Virus record (IMG/VR): IMGVR_UViG_3300009285_011817
Location: 1 to 21,335 of that record
From: a virus
Direction: 5' to 3' (one strand)
Length of the DNA stretch: 21,335 nucleotides
The first letter of the stretch is position 1. Every line of letters starts with the position of its first letter. The translations under genes were made by a program, and so were the position numbers. The notes beneath the pieces were generated by a model. It was not told the origin of the DNA. It saw nothing but the letters and a program-made list of their open reading frames with translations, and made no database searches. This document shows positions 6,169 through 21,335 of this stretch, piece after piece.

Positions 6169-7128
6169 ATCTAGCTCCTTGGTAAGAAACCATACCCCTT
6201 TGGGTAAATATCCTATGGGTTTTCCACCGGCCTTGAGCAAGCTGCCCCGGATAAAAAGCTTACCGAGCTTTTCGATAGTGGGGGCCGTTGAGGCCAAGCG
6301 GACCTTAACGTAAATTTTATCATCACCTATGAGAGCCTGCTCTTCCACCACCCCCACTGGCTCATCCATAGAATTTTGACAGACGGTCGGACTTCGCCTC
6401 ATTCCGTCAATAACGTCCTCAGTAAACGCACCAACAGTGGCCGTACCAAGAACATACCGAGGATCTTGCGAGCGGACTAAGTCTACAGGAATGAGAACTG
6501 AGGACTCATTAGGTTGATAACTAGCCTTAAAGAGTTTAGACACGTACCAACTGGTGAGCTCTGCTCCAGGATTAGCGGGCAAAGGGACTAAAGAACCTTC
6601 CCCAAGGTCTAGGCGGGCTAGAAGATTAGCCAGGCGGTTTTTGACGTAAACTTTGCCACTCACCCAACCATTACCAGAAATAGAAAACCGGCTAACAATG
6701 CCCTCTTTTACCCATTGCCAGATTGTATTAACTGACGGGTAGCGCACGTCATCGACCTCACCCTTGTCATTGCGACGAGCATCGTCAGGTACTTGAGCCA
6801 CCTTATCTAGAACTGCTTTGATCCAGATACCTTTGTCACGGACTACGGCTTTCAAAATCGTGCCTATCCGATATTTTGGTTGGTGATTCCAAAGCAACCG
6901 CTGAGAAGAACTTAAACTCTTGGCCCCAGATTGAAGGCCCTGAGGTGTGATGATGTCATCTTGCAGATCCAGCCCAGAGGTAGCTACGTAGCCCTCGATG
7001 GTCCAGCTCCCCTCTGTCTCATCTGCCTTAGTGATCTGGGCGCTGTAAGGTAGCGCTATAGGAAAAAGTTCATCTGTTTGTAGGTGCGCATAAGCACCTA
7101 CATCGGGGGCTGAAAAAAGTTCAGGCAT
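5425..7128 (-). CDS. Prohead maturation protease fused to scaffolding domain
   Basis: I start it at ATG 7128 (567 residues), not the upstream in-frame codon, because AGGAGGG lies just upstream and the start overlaps the stop of the polyprotein gene (ATGCCTGA). The first half resembles phage head proteases of the S78/U35 type. It has the strand GYVATSGLDLQDDIITPQGL, the catalytic-type histidine in LLWNHQP (about residue 82), and the serine motif EGIVSRFSISG (about 146-151). LGEGSLVPLPANPGA follows. Residues about 215-315 look like a second, weaker copy without the histidine. An acidic coiled helix then leads to a linker with three PPE(V/I)KPEDK units and a helical scaffold tail. The likely role is to guide shell assembly, then cut scaffold and capsid termini. 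Confidence 0.78.
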   Translation of the reverse strand: MPELFSAPDVGAYAHLQTDELFPIALPYSAQITKADETEGSWTIEGYVATSGLDLQDDIITPQGLQSGAKSLSSSQRLLWNHQPKYRIGTILKAVVRDKGIWIKAVLDKVAQVPDDARRNDKGEVDDVRYPSVNTIWQWVKEGIVSRFSISGNGWVSGKVYVKNRLANLLARLDLGEGSLVPLPANPGAELTSWYVSKLFKASYQPNESSVLIPVDLVRSQDPRYVLGTATVGAFTEDVIDGMRRSPTVCQNSMDEPVGVVEEQALIGDDKIYVKVRLASTAPTIEKLGKLFIRGSLLKAGGKPIGYLPKGVWFLTKELDMNEDQKKALEEQIKAKQAELDALKAQFLPADKPPEVKPEDKGAVKPPEIKPEDKGGCMPPEVKPEDKANKPEPSVQAEPPVLNEEEDEYPAPPGKANDPMKALKRAFKIIALALTKNVAGLDPIIRKGMLSTAEELVQSFGKLGAPVQQALAKNLVRPEDGQPDVLKSMKELLAPLTSRLESLAPLAAQVQDLSSKVDRFQSVQRGDPGVASPTRKSDTVDSEDASNPWCHDGYMFINPTGFRPQRG

Positions 7129-10100
7129 TATCCCTCCTGATCCGCCAGGTTCCGGCGTCAGTGCGAGCAAGGTCAAAGACCCCGTTTATACTCTCACCAT
7201 CGAGACGGATTTTTTTATGCTCGGATCCGTCCTCGATCCACTCGCCGTGCCCGTGGTCCCAAAGTCTAATCAACGATCGCGTCTCCTTGGTATCATTTAG
7301 CTCCGAACCAGGAGGGGCTACACCCTCAAAGAACATTTTGTCCCAGGGGTAGTCATCTGTCAATATGAGACTGCCCTCAATGGATTTAAATGGGTTAGGC
7401 CCTTCACCCACAAAGTGTTCTTTGCGTCCGTTCTGCAACGACAAGTGCCACTGCGTTAAAGTAGGCCCCTCACGAACAGACAGCGAACCCTGATAAATTT
7501 GTCGCTGTACACTCCAGCGAAATTCATGTTCTTTCTGGCCCTTAGTAAATTCAAGGTTCTGCTCTCGAAGAGCGTCCCGCATCTCACGAGCCTTCTCAGG
7601 GTTAGCTTCCTCCCAATACCTAAGATCATCGGGCACTCGTTCTTTTACCCATGGAGGAAGAGCAGAAACACCTTGGGGAGGCATCCATTTCTGATTTATC
7701 GCTCGAGCAGATAGTACATAAGGCTCCTGATCCTCGGGTTGGATACAAAGCCAGGCCAGCTCCGAACGAAAATCAGCGTCTGCGGCAGGCACAATACGTT
7801 TAATAGCGTCGGTGGCTAACTGCCTAAAGATGAGTCGACCCTGAAGTTTTCCCGTAAGAAAGTACTCATGAAAGTCAGCTTTTTGCGCCCCGAATGAAGC
7901 CTCACCTTTATCCGCGATAAGATAAACGCCTGGGTACTCCTTGGTGGCACCAGGAGAGTCTGGATCCTCTTTACGTGGGGGCACCACACCCTCATACTCT
8001 AGCCAATGCGGCGGAATGGCTTTTTTACGACGGGCAATGATTTCCGCCCGAACCCCTTCGTCATGTCCAGGCTGTGGGGGTCGAGTCACAAACTCACCTG
8101 AGCCAAGGTCTACCTTAAAGGCATTCTGAGAAACGCGTCGGGCGGCGTCAAGGGTAAGAATAGGCTCAGCAATAGCACCTTGTATAAGGTCAGCTATAGT
8201 CCAACCTATGAGATAGTTTTGCCCGTGCTCCATCCGTAAGTCCATGTGCTCAGTTTTTCCCCTAAAATGCCGCTGAATAACGTAGCGGTAAACCTTATCA
8301 TCAGAGGGATTACTAAGATAAAGGTCCGTCTCGTCAGCCTTTGAACGCGGAAGCTTGTTATCGGCTACACCGTGCTCTTTTAGCCAGTCTGACACCCATT
8401 GCGAAGGCTCTTCATTTTCTTGATACCCTTGACTCGGCTGAAGTGCTGCGCCCTCTGGAAAAGAGCTGCTGGTTATACCATCCGATTTACCTACGGGAAG
8501 CTCACAGATAGCGCCAGCATCTTTAAAGCTTTGACATAACGCCACAGCATCAACGGCGGGGGCCAGGGAGAAAATCTCATCTGATAACTGAAGGTAAGAG
8601 CCACTGGATATTTGGGGTAAACTCTTGAGGGCAGGAGTTAGCGCCAGATCAAGATCTGCTCGATCTTCTGCAGAGCCACCTGACAATACACCGATTGACT
8701 CAGCTATTTTCATTGCTGCGCCTACACTGTCCGGCGCATCCTTAGGCGCAATATTTTTTACAGGCCGTGGGGCCCAGAGACTGGCCTCCACACCCTGGTC
8801 AGTCTCTACGTAATTAAGCGTCTCAAACTCCAGCGTGAATAGACTGCCTGGGGTCATTTTCTCTTTAGAGGCAAAAGTACGACCAAGTTCATAAACCGAA
8901 TAAGCCCCTGCTTTAACAGGCTGATTCATCATCTTCTTGCCGCCGCGAACTAAACCATAACGATGCGTAAAGGCGCCATTTTTAGTGGGTATGGCCTCAA
9001 TAACCACGGCCGTTACCCAAGCTGCCTTATGGTATTTAACCCAGTCATTCGTTTCGTTTCCCTCCGGGAAAACTGAGGACATTAGTTTAGCTACAACGCC
9101 CTCGGAGCCTGGCATACGGCTAATTTGTTTTGTGTTCTTCCCTAGTTCCTCTGCGCCAGATACATTAATAACAGGAGCAAGGTTAACTCCTGCAGAGGGG
9201 ATGCCCATGGTAGACTGAGGCCAAGGGCGGGTTGCAAGGATTTGTCGCCGATCTGATAGGGGAAGTCCCGTCACATCTTTTTGGCCGTCATGCATAATAT
9301 CAAAAACTGTAACCACCACCCGACTATCATCGACCGCTTTGGAGGAAAGATAGCCAGCAACCTGAACCCGAGGAAGATGAGTCCGACCCGTCCACATCTC
9401 AATCTCTACATCTAAAATGGCTCCAGGAAACACATCCTCAAATGTCTTCATTATACTAGGAAGCTTGGCAGTGATGTCCCGGCCCTCTTCGGTGTATATT
9501 TTTTTCCCTACGTGTATTTGCCCATGAACGCCGTCATATTTTTTGGTTATTTCCCAGGGGCCTTGTTTTCCTTGAAAGTATTGGACGAAGGAATCCATGG
9601 TCTGAGCCTCGCTTTCCTTAGAAGGACGGAGCGGTTTAGCCATGCGAAAAAACACGCCGGGGCTGGCCGACTTATTTAATGACATCTGGATCTGCTCTGG
9701 GGGAATAGGCTCCAGAGCCAACGAATACAACGGAACGTGTGGACCTATTGGGCCATGGTCCTCACCGTCGTGTATAAAATGCACCTTTTTCGCAATGTCT
9801 GGAGGCAGTGCTCGTAGGAGGCGCCACTTCAAAAGATAATCAAGACGGTCCCCCAGCTCATCGGCGTTATAGTTAAGATGAATGTCCACGTCCCCCTTGG
9901 TGGTTTTTCTGTTCACCACACCGCCTGTAAGAGATACCAGAGGGCGGCGAAGCAGCGCCTGCTTTCCGCTAAAAGCGTTGAGCACTTGATCAACGGCTAC
10001 CTCATCTTCAGACATCTCCACCCCCGAAGAGCCAATAGACAAAAAGCCGCCCTTTTCCACCCATAAAAGATCCAGCGATTTATCTACGTCTTCACCTGGG

Positions 10101-11236
10101 TGCTCTAAGCCTAGTGTGAGCAGCCCCTCAACAGCCTTAGCATGAAGGGTCTCGTCAGATCGCGTGTGCGCCTCTATATGCTGCTGAAGGTAAAAGGCTG
10201 GAAGTGGTAGCCCTTTAAGTGGCGAAGTATGCTTGATTTGCCGTCGCTCGAACTCCGCCGCCACCTTATCGTGGTAACCTTCTATATCTTCAGAGCTCCA
10301 GTCACCGAAACATTCCCCCGAAGCCAGGCGATTATGTGCTGAGTGGGCATAAAAATGTGCTCCAACCAGATCCTCCATGGAGAGTTTAGTCAGATCCTCA
10401 TCGCGTTGGAACTTAGCCAGTTTTCTTGTAAAAGGAACCAACGGAAGTTCTACAAGAGGGGGCTCAAAAGCTGTTATATTTCTAGCTGGAATAAACTCTA
10501 AACCTAAATTTTCAGCAAACCACGCATCAGTATCTTTATCACCTGCAAAGAACGAATGTACCAATGAGATCTGGTACTGCTCTGCCAACTCCCAACCAAG
10601 AGTAGGATGAGGTTTTCGCTCTAAAGAATGAACATCCCCCGTGGCAACTCTTACATCATCAAGAGCGCCCGCGCCTAACTGCTCCTGCATAGCCCGATAG
10701 CCGTCCCAAAACTGCTCCTCGGTTATGGTCCCCAGGGCAATACCTGACTGATTGGTCACGCCCAAGAGGGCATATCCACGGTCTCGCCAAAATTTAAGGG
10801 CCGCTGCTACCCCAGGCAGTATCTGGACCTCGCTGGCAGAACGAGGAAAAGGTAGATCACCCGTTGAACGACGAAGCGTTCCGTCTAAATCTACGAATAG
10901 CGCGGCATGCTGAGGGGCATAGGCCATATAATCGACTAAATCGCCAGCCCCCTGACTTGCCACTAACTGATCTTCCAGACCGCTGGCAGCTTTAATGGCA
11001 TAGACAAAGATAGACCGACCCTTAAAAATCTCGTCAGTCAGACCAACCTCTGCTTTGAGCTTTTTTATCTGACTCTTGGAGAGCTGACGCCCTGGGCCTA
11101 ACTCAACCTCAGCCCGTACAACCCCCTCGTTAATCAGGCCATAAACTCCGGGCTCTAGATCTTTATGAAAAGGTAGCAAGGGCTGCCCGTCTAAAATAGC
11201 GTCTATTATCGACTGAGGTAAGATTATTCCTCTCAT
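7121..11236 (-). CDS. Multi-domain DNA end-repair polyprotein: HAD phosphatase, NTase-like, ATP-dependent ligase, two LigD phosphoesterase-like domains
   Basis: The protein has 1371 residues; ATG 11236 has GGAG five bases upstream. Domains in order: about 1-95 is unassigned. About 110-260 is a HAD phosphatase like polynucleotide 3'-phosphatase/HisB-N (FVDLDGT at 114-120, TNQSG at 161-165, GDKDTD at 232-237). About 285-340 is a helical unit shared with the neighbouring 133-aa protein. About 412-510 is nucleotidyltransferase-like (GGVVNRKTTKGDVDI, paired Asp 449/451). About 545-830 is an ATP-dependent DNA ligase with K566 in KYDG, LDVEIEMW, VFDIMH, EGVVAK and WVKYHK, followed by an OB-like part. 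About 980-1140 is LigD 3'-phosphoesterase-like (H990, H997, D999, R1001, E1003; YEGVVP). About 1235-1371 is a second such fold lacking those residues. It probably heals 3' ends and seals breaks. Its place between portal and protease suggests co-production with, or packaging in, the head. Confidence 0.85.
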   Translation of the reverse strand: MRGIILPQSIIDAILDGQPLLPFHKDLEPGVYGLINEGVVRAEVELGPGRQLSKSQIKKLKAEVGLTDEIFKGRSIFVYAIKAASGLEDQLVASQGAGDLVDYMAYAPQHAALFVDLDGTLRRSTGDLPFPRSASEVQILPGVAAALKFWRDRGYALLGVTNQSGIALGTITEEQFWDGYRAMQEQLGAGALDDVRVATGDVHSLERKPHPTLGWELAEQYQISLVHSFFAGDKDTDAWFAENLGLEFIPARNITAFEPPLVELPLVPFTRKLAKFQRDEDLTKLSMEDLVGAHFYAHSAHNRLASGECFGDWSSEDIEGYHDKVAAEFERRQIKHTSPLKGLPLPAFYLQQHIEAHTRSDETLHAKAVEGLLTLGLEHPGEDVDKSLDLLWVEKGGFLSIGSSGVEMSEDEVAVDQVLNAFSGKQALLRRPLVSLTGGVVNRKTTKGDVDIHLNYNADELGDRLDYLLKWRLLRALPPDIAKKVHFIHDGEDHGPIGPHVPLYSLALEPIPPEQIQMSLNKSASPGVFFRMAKPLRPSKESEAQTMDSFVQYFQGKQGPWEITKKYDGVHGQIHVGKKIYTEEGRDITAKLPSIMKTFEDVFPGAILDVEIEMWTGRTHLPRVQVAGYLSSKAVDDSRVVVTVFDIMHDGQKDVTGLPLSDRRQILATRPWPQSTMGIPSAGVNLAPVINVSGAEELGKNTKQISRMPGSEGVVAKLMSSVFPEGNETNDWVKYHKAAWVTAVVIEAIPTKNGAFTHRYGLVRGGKKMMNQPVKAGAYSVYELGRTFASKEKMTPGSLFTLEFETLNYVETDQGVEASLWAPRPVKNIAPKDAPDSVGAAMKIAESIGVLSGGSAEDRADLDLALTPALKSLPQISSGSYLQLSDEIFSLAPAVDAVALCQSFKDAGAICELPVGKSDGITSSSFPEGAALQPSQGYQENEEPSQWVSDWLKEHGVADNKLPRSKADETDLYLSNPSDDKVYRYVIQRHFRGKTEHMDLRMEHGQNYLIGWTIADLIQGAIAEPILTLDAARRVSQNAFKVDLGSGEFVTRPPQPGHDEGVRAEIIARRKKAIPPHWLEYEGVVPPRKEDPDSPGATKEYPGVYLIADKGEASFGAQKADFHEYFLTGKLQGRLIFRQLATDAIKRIVPAADADFRSELAWLCIQPEDQEPYVLSARAINQKWMPPQGVSALPPWVKERVPDDLRYWEEANPEKAREMRDALREQNLEFTKGQKEHEFRWSVQRQIYQGSLSVREGPTLTQWHLSLQNGRKEHFVGEGPNPFKSIEGSLILTDDYPWDKMFFEGVAPPGSELNDTKETRSLIRLWDHGHGEWIEDGSEHKKIRLDGESINGVFDLARTDAGTWRIRRDNA

Positions 11237-15523: not shown

Positions 15524-15775
15524 ATGAACCCAGATATCGACCTGTCCCGCGTGCCCCCCGAGGCTATGGATGCCCTCACAAAGAGCCTGCAACAGCAGCG
15601 CTCTCCCTGGCTGATTAACATAGATAAAGGTAAAGCTTATTTAGTCCATAAAGAGAATAAGGACGCGCCACGTATCCTACTAAGTCGTAATCGGCCGTGC
15701 CCCCTCTGTGAGTCGGGAAAGAAATTCAAGGACTGTTGTGTAAGTCGTCTTGGTCTACCTTCCAGAAAGTCTTGA
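15524..15775 (+). CDS. SEC-C zinc-motif small protein
   Basis: The product has 83 residues. ATG 15524 is preceded by AAGGAAGT. The C-terminal third is RNRPCPLCESGKKFKDCC, a close match to the SEC-C metal-binding motif first known from the SecA C-terminus (C-x-C-x-SGKK-x-x-x-CC; here the first pair is CPLC). The N-terminal part has a short helix (PEAMDALTKSLQQQ) and a strand (PWLINIDKGKAYLVHKEN). SEC-C tails bind zinc and often mediate protein or ribosome contact. What this small phage version binds cannot be read from the sequence. It is the first plus-strand gene. Confidence 0.7.
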   Translation: MNPDIDLSRVPPEAMDALTKSLQQQRSPWLINIDKGKAYLVHKENKDAPRILLSRNRPCPLCESGKKFKDCCVSRLGLPSRKS

Positions 15776-18082: not shown

Positions 18083-18260
18083 AAATACCCCCAATTTTAG
18101 CGGCAAGATAGACCTTGACCTTGCGCATAAAAAGGTATTTTGACATAACTTCCCTAAGGTAATAAGACTATCACCAGTAGTAACTAGACGACTAGACTCA
18201 GACCCCTAACACCTAGTGACCCTCCGTGTAATTATACTTGCACTAGCTCTATAAAAATTA

Positions 18261-18352
18261 CTAAAAATATCAAAGTATGCCCCGGATTGCCCTCGCTCAC
18301 ATAATTATCAGCTACTAGAAAGAAAATACCTAAAAATATCAAAGTATGCCCC
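18261..18352. repeat. Pair of 23-bp direct repeats
   Basis: Positions 18261-18283 and 18330-18352 are identical over 23 bases (both start CTAAAAATATC and end GTATGCCCC), with start points 69 bp apart. Similarity stops soon after each copy. A shorter relative, CTAAAAATACC, lies at 18079-18089. They are non-palindromic, so they look like operator or iteron sites for a DNA-binding protein. Confidence 0.7.
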
Positions 18353-18477
18353 AGATCACCGCCTGAAGCAGGTAAGCAACCTCAATTCCAACATATAAAA
18401 AAGGGAATAACTAACTTTTAGGTTTCCTAGAATGACATTCGGAAATCCTGATAGTGTCAATGGGATATCTTTCAATC

Positions 18478-18489
18478 CAGCAATTGCTG
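18478..18489. promoter_or_regulatory. Perfect 12-bp palindrome
   Basis: CAGCAATTGCTG is its own reverse complement. It lies just before the iteron-like units and could be a dimer-binding site. There is no direct evidence for the binder. Confidence 0.4.
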
Positions 18490-18524
18490 AAAGTGCAACA
18501 AAATCATGGGTGTATATATCGGTG

Positions 18525-18664
18525 GTGCACTATCAGATTGATGATAAATAGCCCCATGGTAGACTCAAAATACTGTCGTGATGCACTATCAGATTGTTGA
18601 CAAATAGACCATCGACATGGTGCACTATTTGCGTGATAAACTGTTTGTGTGGCAAATAGACCAT
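18525..18664. repeat. Three degenerate iteron-like units with alternative stems
   Basis: TGCACTATCAGATTG occurs exactly at 18525-18539 and 18582-18596, each followed after a few bases by (A/C)AAATAG(C/A)CC. A third, diverged unit starts with TGCACTATTTG at 18621. CAAATAGACCAT occurs exactly at 18601-18612 and 18653-18664. The core CTATTTG (18625-18631) can pair with CAAATAG upstream (18601-18607, extended by ACCAT-CGAC-ATGGT) or with GCAAATAG downstream (18652-18659), but not both. An inverse copy CTGATAGTG lies at 18448-18456. This suits origin iterons, operators or a switchable leader. Confidence 0.55.
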
Positions 18665-18737
18665 AGACCAGCTGCAATAAGCCCCGTCATTTTCACCATA
18701 GTGGGCAGTAGATCTGGGATCGCGATCGATGCCGTCC

Positions 18738-18784
18738 GAGTATTTTTCCAGCCCTCGAGCGCACGAGCTCTCCAAAAAATACTC
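18738..18784. repeat. 10-bp inverted repeat
   Basis: GAGTATTTTT (18738-18747) is perfectly complementary to AAAAATACTC (18775-18784), with a 27-base GC-rich interior. It is the leftmost of the strong stems that continue to the right edge. It lacks the terminal U-tract placement of an intrinsic terminator on either strand. Confidence 0.5.
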
Positions 18785-18832
18785 AATCAACTAATGCGTG
18801 ACGTTTCTAGGCTATTTTTGCTGTTTCTGGGA

Positions 18833-18838
18833 TATAAT
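18833..18838 (+). promoter_or_regulatory. Perfect TATAAT box upstream of the hairpin region
   Basis: TATAAT is exact, but no good TTGACA lies 16-18 bases upstream, so it may need an activator. The expected start near 18845 coincides with the first base of the palindrome at 18844-18861, so the transcript would begin with a hairpin. This is the best candidate promoter for the hairpin region, but it is weakly supported. Confidence 0.35.
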
Positions 18839-18843
18839 AACAT

Positions 18844-18968
18844 ATGGCGTTTGAACGCCATGAAACGACTTACCACTATTTTTAGGTATATTCTCCTAAA
18901 TGACCAAGGTGAAAGATAGCCTTTCTGATTGTTGTTATCCCCTTATGATGGTTGGCGTTCAAACGCCA
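18844..18968. repeat. Twin palindromes that are inverted copies of each other
   Basis: TGGCGTTTGAACGCCA (18845-18860) and TGGCGTTCAAACGCCA (18953-18968) share identical arms. Their two-base centres are TG and CA, so each is the exact reverse complement of the other. Between them lies a third small stem, TTTAGG/CCTAAA (18881-18900). Right after them is CCATC-TGAT-GATGG (18966-18979). Confidence 0.65.
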
Positions 18969-19105
18969 TCTGATGATGGTGGGTCTACTTTTGGCCCTAG
19001 GGGGACTTCCGCCCTGAGACGAGCTGCAGGAGTTGCCTTCTATCCAACCGGGGTGTTAGGGAGGAAAAGCGTTGTGGCGGGCAGTATTTAATAGACCAGG
19101 AGCAG

Positions 19106-19189
19106 CTAGGACCCATCGCCAGATAGGCCGAGCATGGGCCCTAGCTCGTGCCACAGATACTCCATGGGCTCATGCCTAGACCGAGTATC
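19106..19189 (+). ncRNA. Structured segment with two imperfect or wide stems
   Basis: CTAGGACCCAT (19106-19116) pairs with ATGGGCCCTAG (19134-19144) with one mismatch. GATACTC (19156-19162) pairs with GAGTATC (19183-19189). They mark the start of the continuous hairpin chain. I give it as possible structured RNA only. Confidence 0.35.
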
Positions 19190-19216
19190 CCTCAGGGCTT
19201 CATCCTCCCCTAGGCC

Positions 19217-19257
19217 AGGGCGTGATCATCTAAATCAGATCTAGATGATCACGCCCT
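19217..19257 (+). repeat. 16-bp perfect hairpin, 9-base loop
   Basis: AGGGCGTGATCATCTA (19217-19232) is perfectly complementary to TAGATGATCACGCCCT (19242-19257). No T-tract follows, so it is not a standard terminator. Confidence 0.7.
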
Positions 19258-19342
19258 CCGCGCGTAGCAAGGGCTATGCCAAGATGGGAGATAACCTAGT
19301 GGCTAAGCCAGCGAAACTCAGAAATACTCTAAGCCCTTGAAA

Positions 19343-19387
19343 TCAATGGCTTATCTTTTTACTATGTGGTCAAAGATAAGCCATTGA
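19343..19387 (+). repeat. 16-bp perfect hairpin, 13-base loop
   Basis: TCAATGGCTTATCTTT (19343-19358) pairs with AAAGATAAGCCATTGA (19372-19387). It sits inside a wider closing stem region: CAAGGGCT at 19268-19275 can pair with AGCCCTTG at 19332-19339 just upstream. No T-tract follows. Confidence 0.7.
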
Positions 19388-19427
19388 CGGCCAGCCAGTC
19401 CCAGGCTATCTATGGAGAGACGAGAAA

Positions 19428-19439
19428 GTTCTTTGAAAA
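19428..19439 (+). promoter_or_regulatory. boxA-like antitermination motif, copy 1
   Basis: GTTCTTTGAAAA resembles the boxA element (core GCTCTTTAA) of rRNA leaders and phage nut sites, bound as RNA by NusB/NusE. Downstream, after 17 bases, comes AGGGAC-GAAA-GTCCCT (19457-19472), a tight GNRA-tetraloop hairpin in the place of a boxB. The motif is seen; its function is inference. Confidence 0.35.
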
Positions 19440-19494
19440 AATTCGCGCGCTACCCCAGGGACGAAAGTCCCTTCTGAGGGAGGGCACGTGTGAT

Positions 19495-19557
19495 CGTGCC
19501 ATGGTCAAGGGCGATACGCCCCCTTGATGGTCCTATTGTGGATCAGACCATGGCACG
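19495..19557 (+). repeat. 12-bp closing stem around an inner hairpin
   Basis: CGTGCCATGGTC (19495-19506) is the exact complement of GACCATGGCACG (19546-19557). Inside, CAAGGGCG-ATAC-GCCCCCTTG (19506-19525) forms a second, imperfect stem. The left arm's CGTGCC can alternatively pair with GGCACG at 19483-19488, so two folds compete. Confidence 0.6.
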
Positions 19558-19574
19558 GTGGACAGGGCCACGAT

Positions 19575-19620
19575 GCCCCTTCATGGGGGCAAATAACCCC
19601 TTGACCTTCTGGTCAAGGGG
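19575..19620 (+). repeat. Two adjacent hairpins
   Basis: GCCCC/GGGGC (19575-19579 with 19586-19590), then CCCCTTGACC-TTCT-GGTCAAGGGG (19597-19620), a 10-bp perfect stem with a 4-base loop. The second arm is followed by GAGTATATC, not a T-tract. Confidence 0.65.
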
Positions 19621-19660
19621 GAGTATATCTAGATCATCTGGTGAGGGAAACAGTCCCTCG

Positions 19661-19672
19661 GTTCTTTGAAAA
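19661..19672 (+). promoter_or_regulatory. boxA-like antitermination motif, copy 2
   Basis: This is an exact second copy of GTTCTTTGAAAA, 233 bases after the first. It lies directly after the hairpin GAGGGA-AACAG-TCCCTC (19643-19659). The flanks of the two copies differ, so the 12 bases appear to be kept for a reason. Downstream is a broad stem between TCCCTC (19680-19685) and GAGGGA (19737-19742). Confidence 0.35.
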
Positions 19673-19770
19673 GGCAAGCCTCCCTCCCACCCCCGGACAA
19701 GCACGGTTTTTACCGACTGCTAGGACGGGGAGGAACGAGGGAACCTAGGCCGGAAGCGAGTAAAAAGAAA

Positions 19771-19794
19771 AAATAGCCCCCTAACTAGGGGCAT
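19771..19794 (+). repeat. ATAGCC-type hairpin, member of a repeated leader family
   Basis: AAATAGCCCC-CTAACTA-GGGGCAT forms a 5-bp stem. It shares the frame (A)ATAGCC-stem-loop-GGC(A)T with 19829-19851, 20281-20308 and 20544-20574. In the last two the element sits directly in front of a ribosome site. Confidence 0.5.
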
Positions 19795-19915
19795 GAAAAA
19801 TAACCCCATCATGGATGTGGTGGGGAGAGATAGAGCCTCTAACCGAGGCTATTGAGGTCGAGGGTCATCATGAGGCTAGTCGCCTAGATGGCCATTTTTG
19901 ATTTTTGTCCTTTTG

Positions 19916-19934
19916 CCCTCCCTAGATGGGAGGG
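19916..19934 (+). repeat. Hairpin just upstream of the first array gene
   Basis: CCCTCCC (19916-19922), loop TAGAT, GGGAGGG (19928-19934). The right arm ends 3 bases before GGAG of the ribosome site used by the gene at 19950. Confidence 0.6.
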
Positions 19935-19949
19935 AATGGAGAGAGTAAA

Positions 19950-20213
19950 ATGAAAGTAACACAGTGGTCATTTTCACAATTAATTGGGATCAGCGTCACA
20001 GACGCTGATCCCACAGTTATAGAAAATGTCCTTACCGCCAAGTGCGGTAAGGACGATTTTGATCCCGATGTTCTAATTGAACATCGGGATCAGCGAGTTT
20101 TCGGCCTTACCCCCATGTGGCGAGCATGGGGAGTTTCTGACGGCTCACGTCGAGAGCCATCGGAAACTGAAGTAGCGAAATTTATAGAAGCTCTCGAGGC
20201 CACCATGGCTTAG
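19950..20213 (+). CDS. Small hypothetical protein encoded through six hairpins
   Basis: The product has 87 residues. I chose ATG 19950 because GGAG lies 8 bases upstream; the earlier in-frame ATG at 19926 lies inside the loop and arm of a hairpin and has no ribosome site. The protein reads MKVTQWSFSQLIGISVTDA and continues with helices (DPTVIENVLTAKCG, EVAKFIEALEATMA). It has balanced composition and no recognised domain. What is odd is the DNA: almost the whole gene is built of inverted repeats. These are 13 bp at 19985-20013, 11 bp at 20028-20054, 13 bp at 20061-20091, 7 bp at 20111-20131, a 15-bp stem with one mismatch at 20132-20168, and a stem spanning the TAG stop at 20187-20221. The frame stays open through all of them. 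Confidence 0.65.
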   Translation: MKVTQWSFSQLIGISVTDADPTVIENVLTAKCGKDDFDPDVLIEHRDQRVFGLTPMWRAWGVSDGSRREPSETEVAKFIEALEATMA

Positions 20214-20254
20214 AGAGCTTCCGCTCTCGAGGGATGAAATACTCCCTCGAGAGC
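19985..20254 (+). repeat. Dense hairpin array, part 1 (inside and just after the 87-aa gene)
   Basis: Arms seen: 19985-19997/20001-20013 (13 bp, loop 3); 20028-20038/20044-20054 (11 bp, loop 5); 20061-20073/20079-20091 (13 bp, loop 5); 20111-20117/20125-20131 (7 bp); 20132-20146/20154-20168 (one mismatch, one G-T); 20187-20195/20213-20221 (9 bp, extendable inward); 20223-20234/20243-20254 (12 bp, loop 8). The arm sequences differ from hairpin to hairpin, so this is not a repeat family in the usual sense. The shared trait is the shape. Confidence 0.85.
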
Positions 20255-20258
20255 TTTT
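20223..20258 (+). terminator. Possible terminator or regulatory hairpin after the 87-aa gene
   Basis: A 12-bp stem (GCTCTCGAGGGA with TCCCTCGAGAGC) is followed by only four T bases. It could be a weak intrinsic terminator. Because its arms can also pair with the preceding hairpin's arms, a switch is possible. The loop TGAAATAC recurs at 20801-20808. Confidence 0.35.
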
Positions 20259-20308
20259 CGGCCTGCGAGGCCATGATGAGAGATAGCCTCCTGATAGGGG
20301 AGGCATAA
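20234..20308 (+). CDS. Possible micro-ORF, 24 aa, start codon in a hairpin loop
   Basis: ATG 20234 lies at the loop edge of the 12-bp hairpin. The frame reads MKYSLESFSACEAMMRDSLL, then IGEA, and ends with TAA right against the AAGGAG of the next gene. GAGGG sits inside the stem immediately before the ATG, too close for an ordinary ribosome site. The first eleven bases (GATGAAATACT, shared with positions 20799-20809 and 20318-20328) are the reason to list it. Coding is unproven. Confidence 0.25.
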   Translation: MKYSLESFSACEAMMRDSLLIGEA

Positions 20309-20318
20309 GGAGAAAGAG
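20281..20318 (+). promoter_or_regulatory. Hairpin plus ribosome site, leader copy A
   Basis: ATA, then GCCTCC-TGATAGG-GGAGGC (20286-20304), then AT-AAGGAG (20307-20312), 6 bases before ATG 20319. The ribosome site begins two bases after the stem. Copy B at 20544-20585 has the same flanks but the reverse complement of this hairpin. Confidence 0.6.
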
Positions 20319-20471
20319 ATGAAATACTACATTTTAGCAGTGTACGAAAATAATGAAATAGTCTCTGTGCCCGGAACAGAGACTATTTTTCTGGACATAG
20401 CTGAAAGGAATTTACATCTTTGCGAGGCCTGTTGCCTCGCAAGAGTGAGCTATTTTATAGCTCACAAATAA
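20319..20471 (+). CDS. 50-aa hypothetical protein in the hairpin array
   Basis: ATG 20319 has AAGGAG 6 bases upstream. The product starts MKYYILAVYENNEIVSVPG and ends FIAHK. The pattern Y-x-hydrophobic-AV near the N-terminus, followed by a strand and a helix (TIFLDIAERNLHL), is also seen in the next gene (MSYQVMAVT... SIVFDNLKRAIEVM), so the two may be distant paralogs. The cysteine group CEACC is encoded by a hairpin. Inverted repeats inside the gene: 20356-20368/20376-20388 (13 bp), 20420-20428/20434-20442 (9 bp), 20445-20452/20458-20465 (8 bp, ending just before the stop). The function is unknown. Confidence 0.6.
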   Translation: MKYYILAVYENNEIVSVPGTETIFLDIAERNLHLCEACCLARVSYFIAHK

Positions 20472-20585
20472 CCCCCAATACCTCCCATAGGTTGAAACAG
20501 CACCAAGGAGGTTTTTAGGACCCTGGATAGGGTCATGTAAAGAGAAATAGCCTCCCCTATCAGGGAGGCATAAAGGAGAAAAAAG
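20472..20585 (+). promoter_or_regulatory. Intergenic leader with hairpins and ribosome site, leader copy B
   Basis: The stretch contains ACCTCC/GGAGGT (20480-20485 with 20507-20512), GACCCT-GGAT-AGGGTC (20519-20534), and then ATA plus GCCTCCC-CTATCA-GGGAGGC (20550-20569), followed by ATA-AAGGAG and ATG 20586. Copy A's hairpin and this one are reverse complements of each other apart from one extra G, while the flanking bases keep the same orientation. Confidence 0.6.
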
Positions 20586-20780
20586 ATGAGTTATCAGGTA
20601 ATGGCTGTGACGATAAAAAAGCAAGGGAGCACCGTGCTCCCTCGCTCTATAGTATTCGACAACCTAAAAAGGGCTATCGAAGTGATGCGGCGATACCATG
20701 CTGAAGAAACAGCATGGTGGGAAGAAATCGGAGAGAGAAATCTCTCCGAAAAAGAATTTTTTTATGTGAAAAAAATCTAG
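20586..20780 (+). CDS. 64-aa hypothetical protein in the hairpin array
   Basis: ATG 20586 has AGGAG seven bases upstream. The protein reads MSYQVMAVTIKKQGSTVLPR, a beta start, then a helix (NLKRAIEVMRRYHAEETAWW) and a charged end (EKEFFYVKKI). It could be a diverged relative of the preceding 50-aa protein: both start with a Y-x-x-x-AV strand and have a hydrophobic-F-hydrophobic-helix pattern after a turn. Internal inverted repeats are AGGGAGCAC/GTGCTCCCT (20624-20642), ACCATGCTG/CAGCATGGT (20695-20718), TCGGAGAGA-GAAA-TCTCTCCGA (20728-20749) and an A/T-only stem ATTTTTTT/AAAAAAAT (20756-20776). No known family. Confidence 0.6.
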   Translation: MSYQVMAVTIKKQGSTVLPRSIVFDNLKRAIEVMRRYHAEETAWWEEIGERNLSEKEFFYVKKI

Positions 20781-20799
20781 ATCAGAAAAAATCCATGGG

Positions 20800-20895
20800 A
20801 TGAAATACTCCATGGTCAAATTTTGTGACCCCATCCGGGGTCAAAGGCTACCATCCAATGGCGCTAGGATGGTAGCTGAGTTTATAACTGGTTAA
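20800..20895 (+). CDS. Possible micro-ORF, 31 aa, start codon in a hairpin loop
   Basis: ATG 20800 lies between CCATGG arms (20793-20798 and 20810-20815). The frame reads MKYSMVKFCDPIRGQRLPSN and ends VAEFITG with TAA at 20893. It shares its first four residues (MKYS), and GGGATGAAATACTCC at DNA level, with the micro-ORF at 20234. It would end just upstream of the ribosome site of the next gene, so it could act as a leader peptide. No separate ribosome site is visible. Coding is unproven. Confidence 0.3.
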   Translation: MKYSMVKFCDPIRGQRLPSNGARMVAEFITG

Positions 20896-20914
20896 AAAAT
20901 CAGCGCCAAGGAGG
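20847..20914 (+). promoter_or_regulatory. Possible pseudoknot leader next to a ribosome site
   Basis: GCTACCATCC (20847-20856) pairs with GGATGGTAGC (20867-20876), leaving loop AATGGCGCTA. The loop bases TGGCGCT (20859-20865) are perfectly complementary to AGCGCCA (20902-20908), which touches the AGGAGG ribosome site (from 20909) of the gene at 20920. An H-type pseudoknot would place structure against the Shine-Dalgarno. The complementarity is seen; control of translation is inference. Confidence 0.45.
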
Positions 20915-20919
20915 ATGAA

Positions 20920-21335
20920 ATGGATATTACAGCGGCAGTCCATCTTCTGGCCAGTGCTGGCCAGAAGATGGAACGTGAGCAAATATTACTACTCGAATCC
21001 TACCAGGTTGTGTCGCTTGAAAGTTACCGCCTGCAGCCAGGCGGTAACTTCAGCTGGGGAAAAACTTTTCCCCAACTAAAGGGAGCGCAGATAATCGGGA
21101 CAACATTGTCCCGATTTAGAAGTTACGTAAAGTCCCATGAGGGCAAAGTCCCATCATGGGAAGAGCTGAAAAAGTGGGAAACCGCCAAGCGGTTTCCCAA
21201 GGCTGACGGCGGAGAGGCTATCTCCGCCAAGCCAAAGAACAAGTCAAGGCCCGCGGAAATGTCCACAAACCAGATCAATAACTCCTGCGACGGGGCCAAC
21301 CGGGATAATTTCCCGGTTGTGCCTCTAAAGGCACA
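20920..21335 (+). CDS. Hypothetical protein in the hairpin array, partial at right edge
   Basis: ATG 20920 has AAGGAGG five bases upstream. The frame stays open to the window end, giving 138 residues (MDITAAVHLLASAGQKMERE ...). The N-terminus is helical; then come YQVVSLESYRLQPGGNFSWG, TLSRFRSYVKSHEGKVPSW and a basic, low-complexity region (KPKNKSRPAEM). It may be a DNA- or RNA-binding protein by its charge, but no motif is recognised. Inverted repeats fill the gene: 20939-20954/20957-20972 (16 bp, loop 2), 21021-21033/21038-21050 (13 bp), 21055-21063/21066-21074, 21093-21103/21106-21116, 21133-21140/21154-21161, 21175-21185/21189-21199, 21208-21215/21221-21228, 21297-21305/21311-21319 and 21318-21323/21330-21335. 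None breaks the frame. Confidence 0.65.
   Translation, partial: MDITAAVHLLASAGQKMEREQILLLESYQVVSLESYRLQPGGNFSWGKTFPQLKGAQIIGTTLSRFRSYVKSHEGKVPSWEELKKWETAKRFPKADGGEAISAKPKNKSRPAEMSTNQINNSCDGANRDNFPVVPLKA

Follow-up and report, generated by a model that had tools for sequence, protein, structure and literature searches.

The virus record IMGVR_UViG_3300009285_011817 of the IMG/VR database consists only of a 21,335-base fragment, which was analysed over its whole length and is called here the window. Its right end, positions 18738-21335, contains a dense chain of different short hairpins, far above what chance or codon usage accounts for, running through non-coding DNA (19217-19620) and through four small open reading frames (ORF1-ORF4) alike. 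The chain was first noticed in a reading of the letters alone (the sequence-only reading), which proposed that the shape rather than the sequence of the hairpins is common to them. In this work, we describe the hairpins and the genes that carry them, compare their number with chance, and weigh the processes that may have produced them.

Few hairpins occur in 18738-19200, among them two copies of the 17-base-pair (bp) palindrome TGGCGTT-(TG/CA)-AACGCCA (18844-18968), located at 18844 and 18953, of which the second is inverted. The chain had been said to begin at about 18.7 kb; its dense part begins near 19.2 kb. The non-coding part holds a perfect 16-bp hairpin at 19217-19257 (19 bp with one A-C mismatch), another of 16 bp at 19343-19387, a nested hairpin at 19495-19557, whose 12-bp outer arms enclose a 7-bp hairpin (19505-19527), and one of 10 bp at 19597-19620. 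The ORFs described here lie on the plus strand. ORF1 (19950-20213, 87 amino acids) contains hairpins at 19985-20013 (13 bp), 20028-20054 (11 bp), 20060-20092 (14 bp), 20111-20131 (7 bp) and, with two mismatches, 20132-20168 (15 bp), and a further one of 16 bp with two mismatches spans its stop codon (20187-20221). It is followed by the 12-bp hairpin GCTCTCGAGGGA-tgaaatac-TCCCTCGAGAGC (20223-20254), which has an ATG at the edge of arm and loop and whose loop motif recurs at 20799.

The leader hairpin ATAGCCTCC-TGATAGG-GGAGGCATAA (20283-20308, plus strand) stands upstream of the Shine-Dalgarno site of ORF2 (20319-20471, 50 amino acids, AAGGAG ahead of the start), within which hairpins lie at 20356-20388 (13 bp), 20420-20442 (9 bp) and 20445-20465 (9 bp). 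A second copy of this leader (20547-20573, plus strand) precedes ORF3 (20586-20780, 64 amino acids, AAAGGAG ahead of the start), which contains hairpins at 20620-20646 (12 bp, one mismatch), 20695-20718 (9 bp), 20728-20749 (9 bp, with a GAAA loop) and 20756-20776 (8 bp). A possible ORF of 31 codons (20800-20895, MKYSMVKF...), which scores best for codons in its own frame and has no clear Shine-Dalgarno site, carries hairpins at 20826-20843 (7 bp) and 20847-20876 (10 bp). Finally, ORF4 (20920-21335, at least 138 amino acids, AAGGAGG ahead of the start) is open at the contig end and holds nine hairpins: 20939-20972 (16 bp), 21021-21050 (13 bp), 21055-21074 (9 bp), 21093-21116 (11 bp), 21133-21161 (11 bp, one mismatch), 21175-21199 (11 bp), 21208-21228 (8 bp), 21297-21319 (9 bp) and 21318-21335 (7 bp). 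The last of these ends exactly on the final base of the window, so the end of the contig truncates the chain. Adjacent stems are frequently just a few bases apart.

The four ORFs are probably real genes, judging by the Shine-Dalgarno-like sequences ahead of their starts and by codon scores based on the phage's codon usage, which are best for each in its own frame (for ORF1, 0.20 compared with -0.24 to -0.75 in the other frames). No relatives of them were found in viral contigs, species genomes or phages, nor through Pfam or PHROGs, and structure predictions from the single sequences of ORF1 and ORF4 were uninformative (predicted local distance difference test scores of 46 and 43). By eye ORF2 and ORF3 had looked like paralogues, an idea dropped when no alignment was obtained.

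Strict hairpins were defined by perfect arms of at least 7 bases and loops of 2-10, and were counted against 100 dinucleotide shuffles. In the hairpin region there are 29 of them, where 1.4 are expected and the richest shuffle gave 5. With longer arms the counts are 22 compared with 0.34 at arms of at least 8, 18 compared with 0.07 at 9 or more, and 12 at 10 or more, a length that none of the 100 shuffles produced (0.0 expected). The excess is confined to this region; the other 18,737 bases of the window are at chance (8 strict hairpins, 8.0 expected), and the 6 kb further left, read from a second contig, contain three, all of 7 bp. Synonymous shuffles (500) of the four small ORFs served as the coding control and did not reproduce the density, giving 1.8 hairpins with arms of at least 7 (maximum 7) compared with the actual 18, 0.3 with arms of at least 9 (maximum 2) compared with 14, and 0.16 with arms of at least 10 compared with 8. 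The proposal that the codons of both arms serve protein and pairing at once appears supported. The earlier figure of more than 40 inverted repeats holds under loose rules only (44 non-overlapping stems at a score of at least 6, with loops up to 40 and some mismatches).

Such density is unusual. In 1.76 Mb of other viral contigs, hairpins with arms of at least 9 occur at 0.085 per kb, compared with 18 in 2.6 kb here, and the richest other 2.5-kb stretch has 6, in the AT-rich phage L147 (and the near-identical L130). A scan of viral contigs by loop motif, which amounts to a blind sample, revealed no array like that of 18738-21335. Nor was one present in seven further viral contigs with relatives of the terminase (25-27% identity), five of them read whole or nearly so, where at most 3 hairpins with arms of at least 9 occurred per 2.5 kb. 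A survey of 118,019 genomes (arms of at least 10, spacers of at most 8) reported a viral mean of 1.93 inverted-repeat bases per kb and a maximum of 180 for any genome (PMC13155455); by the same definition the hairpin region has 112, a value for one chosen stretch, whereas the survey maximum is genome-wide. A smaller case of the same kind was observed at 1208-1487 of L147 (827-1106 of L130), where about 280 non-coding bases, situated ahead of the packaging genes in this unrelated AT-rich phage, contain seven perfect hairpins with 8-10-bp arms of differing sequence.

The stems are made up almost entirely of Watson-Crick pairs. In 32 stems, 334 of the 341 pairs are of this type, the rest being 2 G-T, 3 A-C and 2 other mismatches. 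At a mismatch cost of 2, 27 stems are perfect, three have one mismatch and two have two, while chance would give 1.8 perfect and 0.5 imperfect stems, so that a modest excess of imperfect stems remains (5 compared with 0.5). Under looser scoring, 5 of 36 mismatches are G-T and 8 are A-C, and G-U pairing is thus not favoured. Both strands fold strongly throughout the region, with mean z-scores of -5.3 (sense) and -5.4 (antisense), compared with 0.0 and -0.4 elsewhere in the window.

Coding hairpins use the three codon phases about equally, with no preference. Imperfect coding stems belong nearly all to phase 3, in which third codon positions oppose each other (3 of 5 phase-3 stems compared with none of 14 others, Fisher p = 0.01; under looser scoring 5 of 6 compared with 1 of 13, p = 0.003, both from small numbers). 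Most of the mismatches in phase-3 stems are wobble-wobble pairs, which a synonymous change could repair. Small as the numbers are, this suggests that stems drift where the protein is indifferent, rather than being policed for pairing.

The sequence-only reading held that arm sequences differ and that this is not one mobile palindrome copied many times. The latter stands, as no motif is common to all hairpins and only short two-copy families are present; the former is mostly true, except that pieces of arms are shared. When one arm of every stem was removed and the remaining shared k-mers were clustered, 37 clusters of 9-mers were obtained compared with 12.3 in shuffles (maximum 25), and 13 clusters of 10-mers compared with 2.9. 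Examples are GGTCAAGGG at 19503 and 19598, and GCTCTCGAG at 20190 and 20223. The leaders of ORF2 and ORF3, at 20283 and 20547, match in flanks and arms, while the loop TGATAGG of the first is inverted in the second (CCTATCAG, reverse complement CTGATAGG). The alignment score of the loops is 6 when inverted and 0 when direct, a result reached by 0.4% of shuffled loop pairs. This is the one case of spacer inversion between otherwise equal hairpins. The motif GATGAAATACT was also observed at 20233, 20318 and 20799, that is, three times in 600 bases where 0.01 is expected in the window; two of its copies lie at hairpin loops and one at the start of ORF2.

We read the hairpin region as a hotspot at which replication of the phage DNA undergoes short-range template switching, and give this reading a probability of about one half. 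The growing strand would fold back on itself or hop to the other parental strand, copy 7-16 bases as their reverse complement and then return, so that one switch would create a perfect hairpin in a single step. Further switches could re-perfect existing hairpins, copy arm pieces to nearby sites and invert a loop. Within the small genes, only those events that leave the protein working would survive, and both arms would in this way stay coding. A DNA-level process that writes reverse complements would predict each of the features seen, namely arms that are perfect, symmetry of the strands, arm pieces in common and an inverted loop. The even use of codon phases, and an excess that is confined to one stretch and withstands synonymous shuffling, also speak for it. 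Among the roles listed in the sequence-only reading, a record of template switching agrees best with these features. Such switching is known to make and mend hairpins (PMC8794818) and to homogenise arms and invert spacers inside genes (PMC8604942), and it is the mechanism discussed in both of these reports and for the palindromes of Nematomorpha, where the authors took the 'binary' identity of arms as a sign of active homogenisation, the same argument from perfection (PMC6649704). As the cause of the hairpins, template switching appears most likely; it may still be acting, and it may be linked to the direct-repeat stretch next to the region, a possible origin and hence a place of exposed single strands.

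Several points weigh against this reading. Searches of viral contigs, species genomes, phages and plasmids yielded no diverged relative of the region, and no switching event could be reconstructed; the DNA of the region has no match in phages and one of 26 bases in plasmids, and otherwise matches only contigs of the same phage, with about 100% identity. The reading gives no reason why this phage and this stretch should be special. Mismatches are few, so that the argument from G-U pairs draws its weight from the perfection of the stems and not from numbers, and the excess of shared arm pieces is due in part to the common leader and start motifs. The remaining points are features that would be at home in structured RNA: stems are richer in GC (0.56) than the DNA outside them (0.43) or stems that arise by chance (0.45); the sense strand of the coding part has linkers rich in A (A 0.38, T 0.22); GAAA loops close two hairpins; and the starts of ORF2-ORF4 are left open in hairpin-poor gaps.

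These features belong to the foremost competing explanation, selection for a structured transcript, in which hairpins of the plus-strand mRNA would resist host or defence ribonucleases or bind a structure-reading protein, every stem being kept paired. The strong folding over the entire region is in its favour too, as is the loop-side motif GGGATGAAATACTCC, common to two hairpins whose arms are otherwise different. RNA-level selection alone, however, would tolerate G-U pairs, which are almost absent (2 of 341), and would favour the sense strand, whereas the antisense strand folds equally well, and the wobble-wobble mismatches left unmended despite a synonymous remedy are unlike what strict selection for pairing predicts. 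No Rfam 15 family matched at the gathering score, and weak matches were at chance level only. We consider this explanation less likely than template switching, but a serious rival. The two processes are compatible, as stems produced by switching could afterwards be retained by selection. A doubtful, more speculative idea is a shape-coded element of a kind not described in phages: the phage would keep a gene-containing stretch as an unbroken series of hairpins unrelated in sequence, since the region would be protected or regulated by its own folded transcript or extruded DNA, with switching maintaining the perfection of the stems.

A function at the DNA level is unlikely. Cruciforms, or hairpins on single-stranded replication intermediates, would here serve replication initiation, pausing or packaging, which agrees with the perfect Watson-Crick arms, the strand symmetry and the neighbouring AT-rich stretch of 30-34-nucleotide direct repeats, which could be an origin. 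The hairpins lack a common motif, however, no known system of replication initiation or packaging was found that places dozens of unrelated hairpins inside genes, and DnaA-box-like sites are at chance (2 compared with 1.0 expected).

It is very improbable that chimeric inverted copies arose during library amplification or assembly, even though template-switch chimeras are known from strand-displacement amplification (PMC9484634) and the contigs end in or next to the region in three assemblies. A second contig, L010, repeats the first hairpins, up to 19559, with 100% identity, the ORFs stay open through the arms, their codon bias and ribosome sites being as expected of genes, and artefacts would not select coding arms. 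All three assemblies of the phage terminate in or beside the region (at 21335 for the window, at 19559 for L010 and at 18651 for L009), and two of the three ends coincide with a stem boundary or miss it by no more than 2 bases, which suggests that coverage drops or k-mers break there. Equally remote is the idea that these are normal control hairpins, such as terminators or processing sites, that happen to be unusually dense, for although 19 terminator-like sites occur in 18738-21335 where 3.8 are expected, and two leader hairpins stand directly ahead of ribosome-binding sites, most hairpins are inside ORFs and 14 of the 19 sites are antisense (5 sense) because A-rich linkers precede the stems on the sense strand. 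The antisense sites may limit antisense transcription.

The sequence-only reading knew of no named system with this layout, which was too strong a statement. The closest precedent of the phage hairpins is found in the mitochondrial genes of Nematomorpha, whose coding palindromes have much the same layout and for which template switching has been proposed (Mikhailov et al. 2019, PMC6649704). In both cases protein-coding genes hold numerous inverted repeats that are perfect and differ in sequence, with both arms coding (probably so in the phage), few imperfect repeats, and trouble with read coverage and assembly. The palindromes of Nematomorpha, however, lie in animal mitochondrial DNA, have arms that measure 15 bp or more (43 on average, 142 at most) and avoid phase 3 in long repeats, whereas here a tailed double-stranded DNA phage has arms of 7-16 bp, without phase preference, in coding and non-coding DNA alike and in one stretch only. 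Quasi-palindrome mutations caused by template switching (PMC8794818, PMC8604942) similarly involve perfect short hairpins, homogenised arms and inverted loops inside coding genes; they are known as scattered single events from comparison of strains, while some 30 hairpins stand together in the phage region. Rickettsia palindromic elements also lie within open reading frames, but these are copied repeat families that lose their identity over time (PMC6649704), whereas no family spans the phage hairpins and their arms are near perfect. A literature search for hairpin arrays in phages found nothing similar.

T4-type phages possess intrinsic terminators and cassettes of promoter and stem-loop. The two similar leader hairpins between short genes resemble such cassettes; the phage hairpins differ in lying mostly in genes, in lacking U tracts on the sense strand and in having differing sequences.

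When working genes of hairworm mitochondria were reported to be dense in perfect palindromes, no cause was known. If a phage that shares this trait can be recovered together with a host, it would be a tractable system for asking whether such palindromes are a by-product of replication or a selected structure, and how far proteins bend to accommodate them. The finding bears on how perfect RNA stems arise and stay perfect.

The virus itself is an unclassified phage. The leftward genes of the window encode the terminase large subunit, portal, head protease and a head protein, by which it is a tailed phage, and among its rightward genes are those for a helix-turn-helix protein and for a DNA methyltransferase. 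The closest relatives of the terminase reach about 25-27% identity; the methyltransferase has matches in Burkholderia phages (27-28% identity), and no relatives of it were found among the species genomes searched. The same phage is present in the two further IMG/VR contigs mentioned above, L010 and L009, with about 100% identity, both of which end before most of the hairpins.

Bordering the hairpin region on its left, at 18254-18679, the window reaches its highest AT content and carries imperfect direct repeats of 30-34 nucleotides, in three families and spaced 52-69 nucleotides apart; this stretch is possibly an origin or control region. Within the structural operon, on the minus strand, a 1371-amino-acid protein (7121-11236) combines a PNK 3'-phosphatase domain with an ATP-dependent DNA ligase domain, along with a nucleotidyltransferase-like GDVDIHL motif spotted by eye, and may be an end-repair fusion. 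Lastly, a small protein encoded at 15524-15775 on the plus strand carries a C-terminal SEC-C-like zinc motif; the match is weak and falls short of the Pfam threshold.

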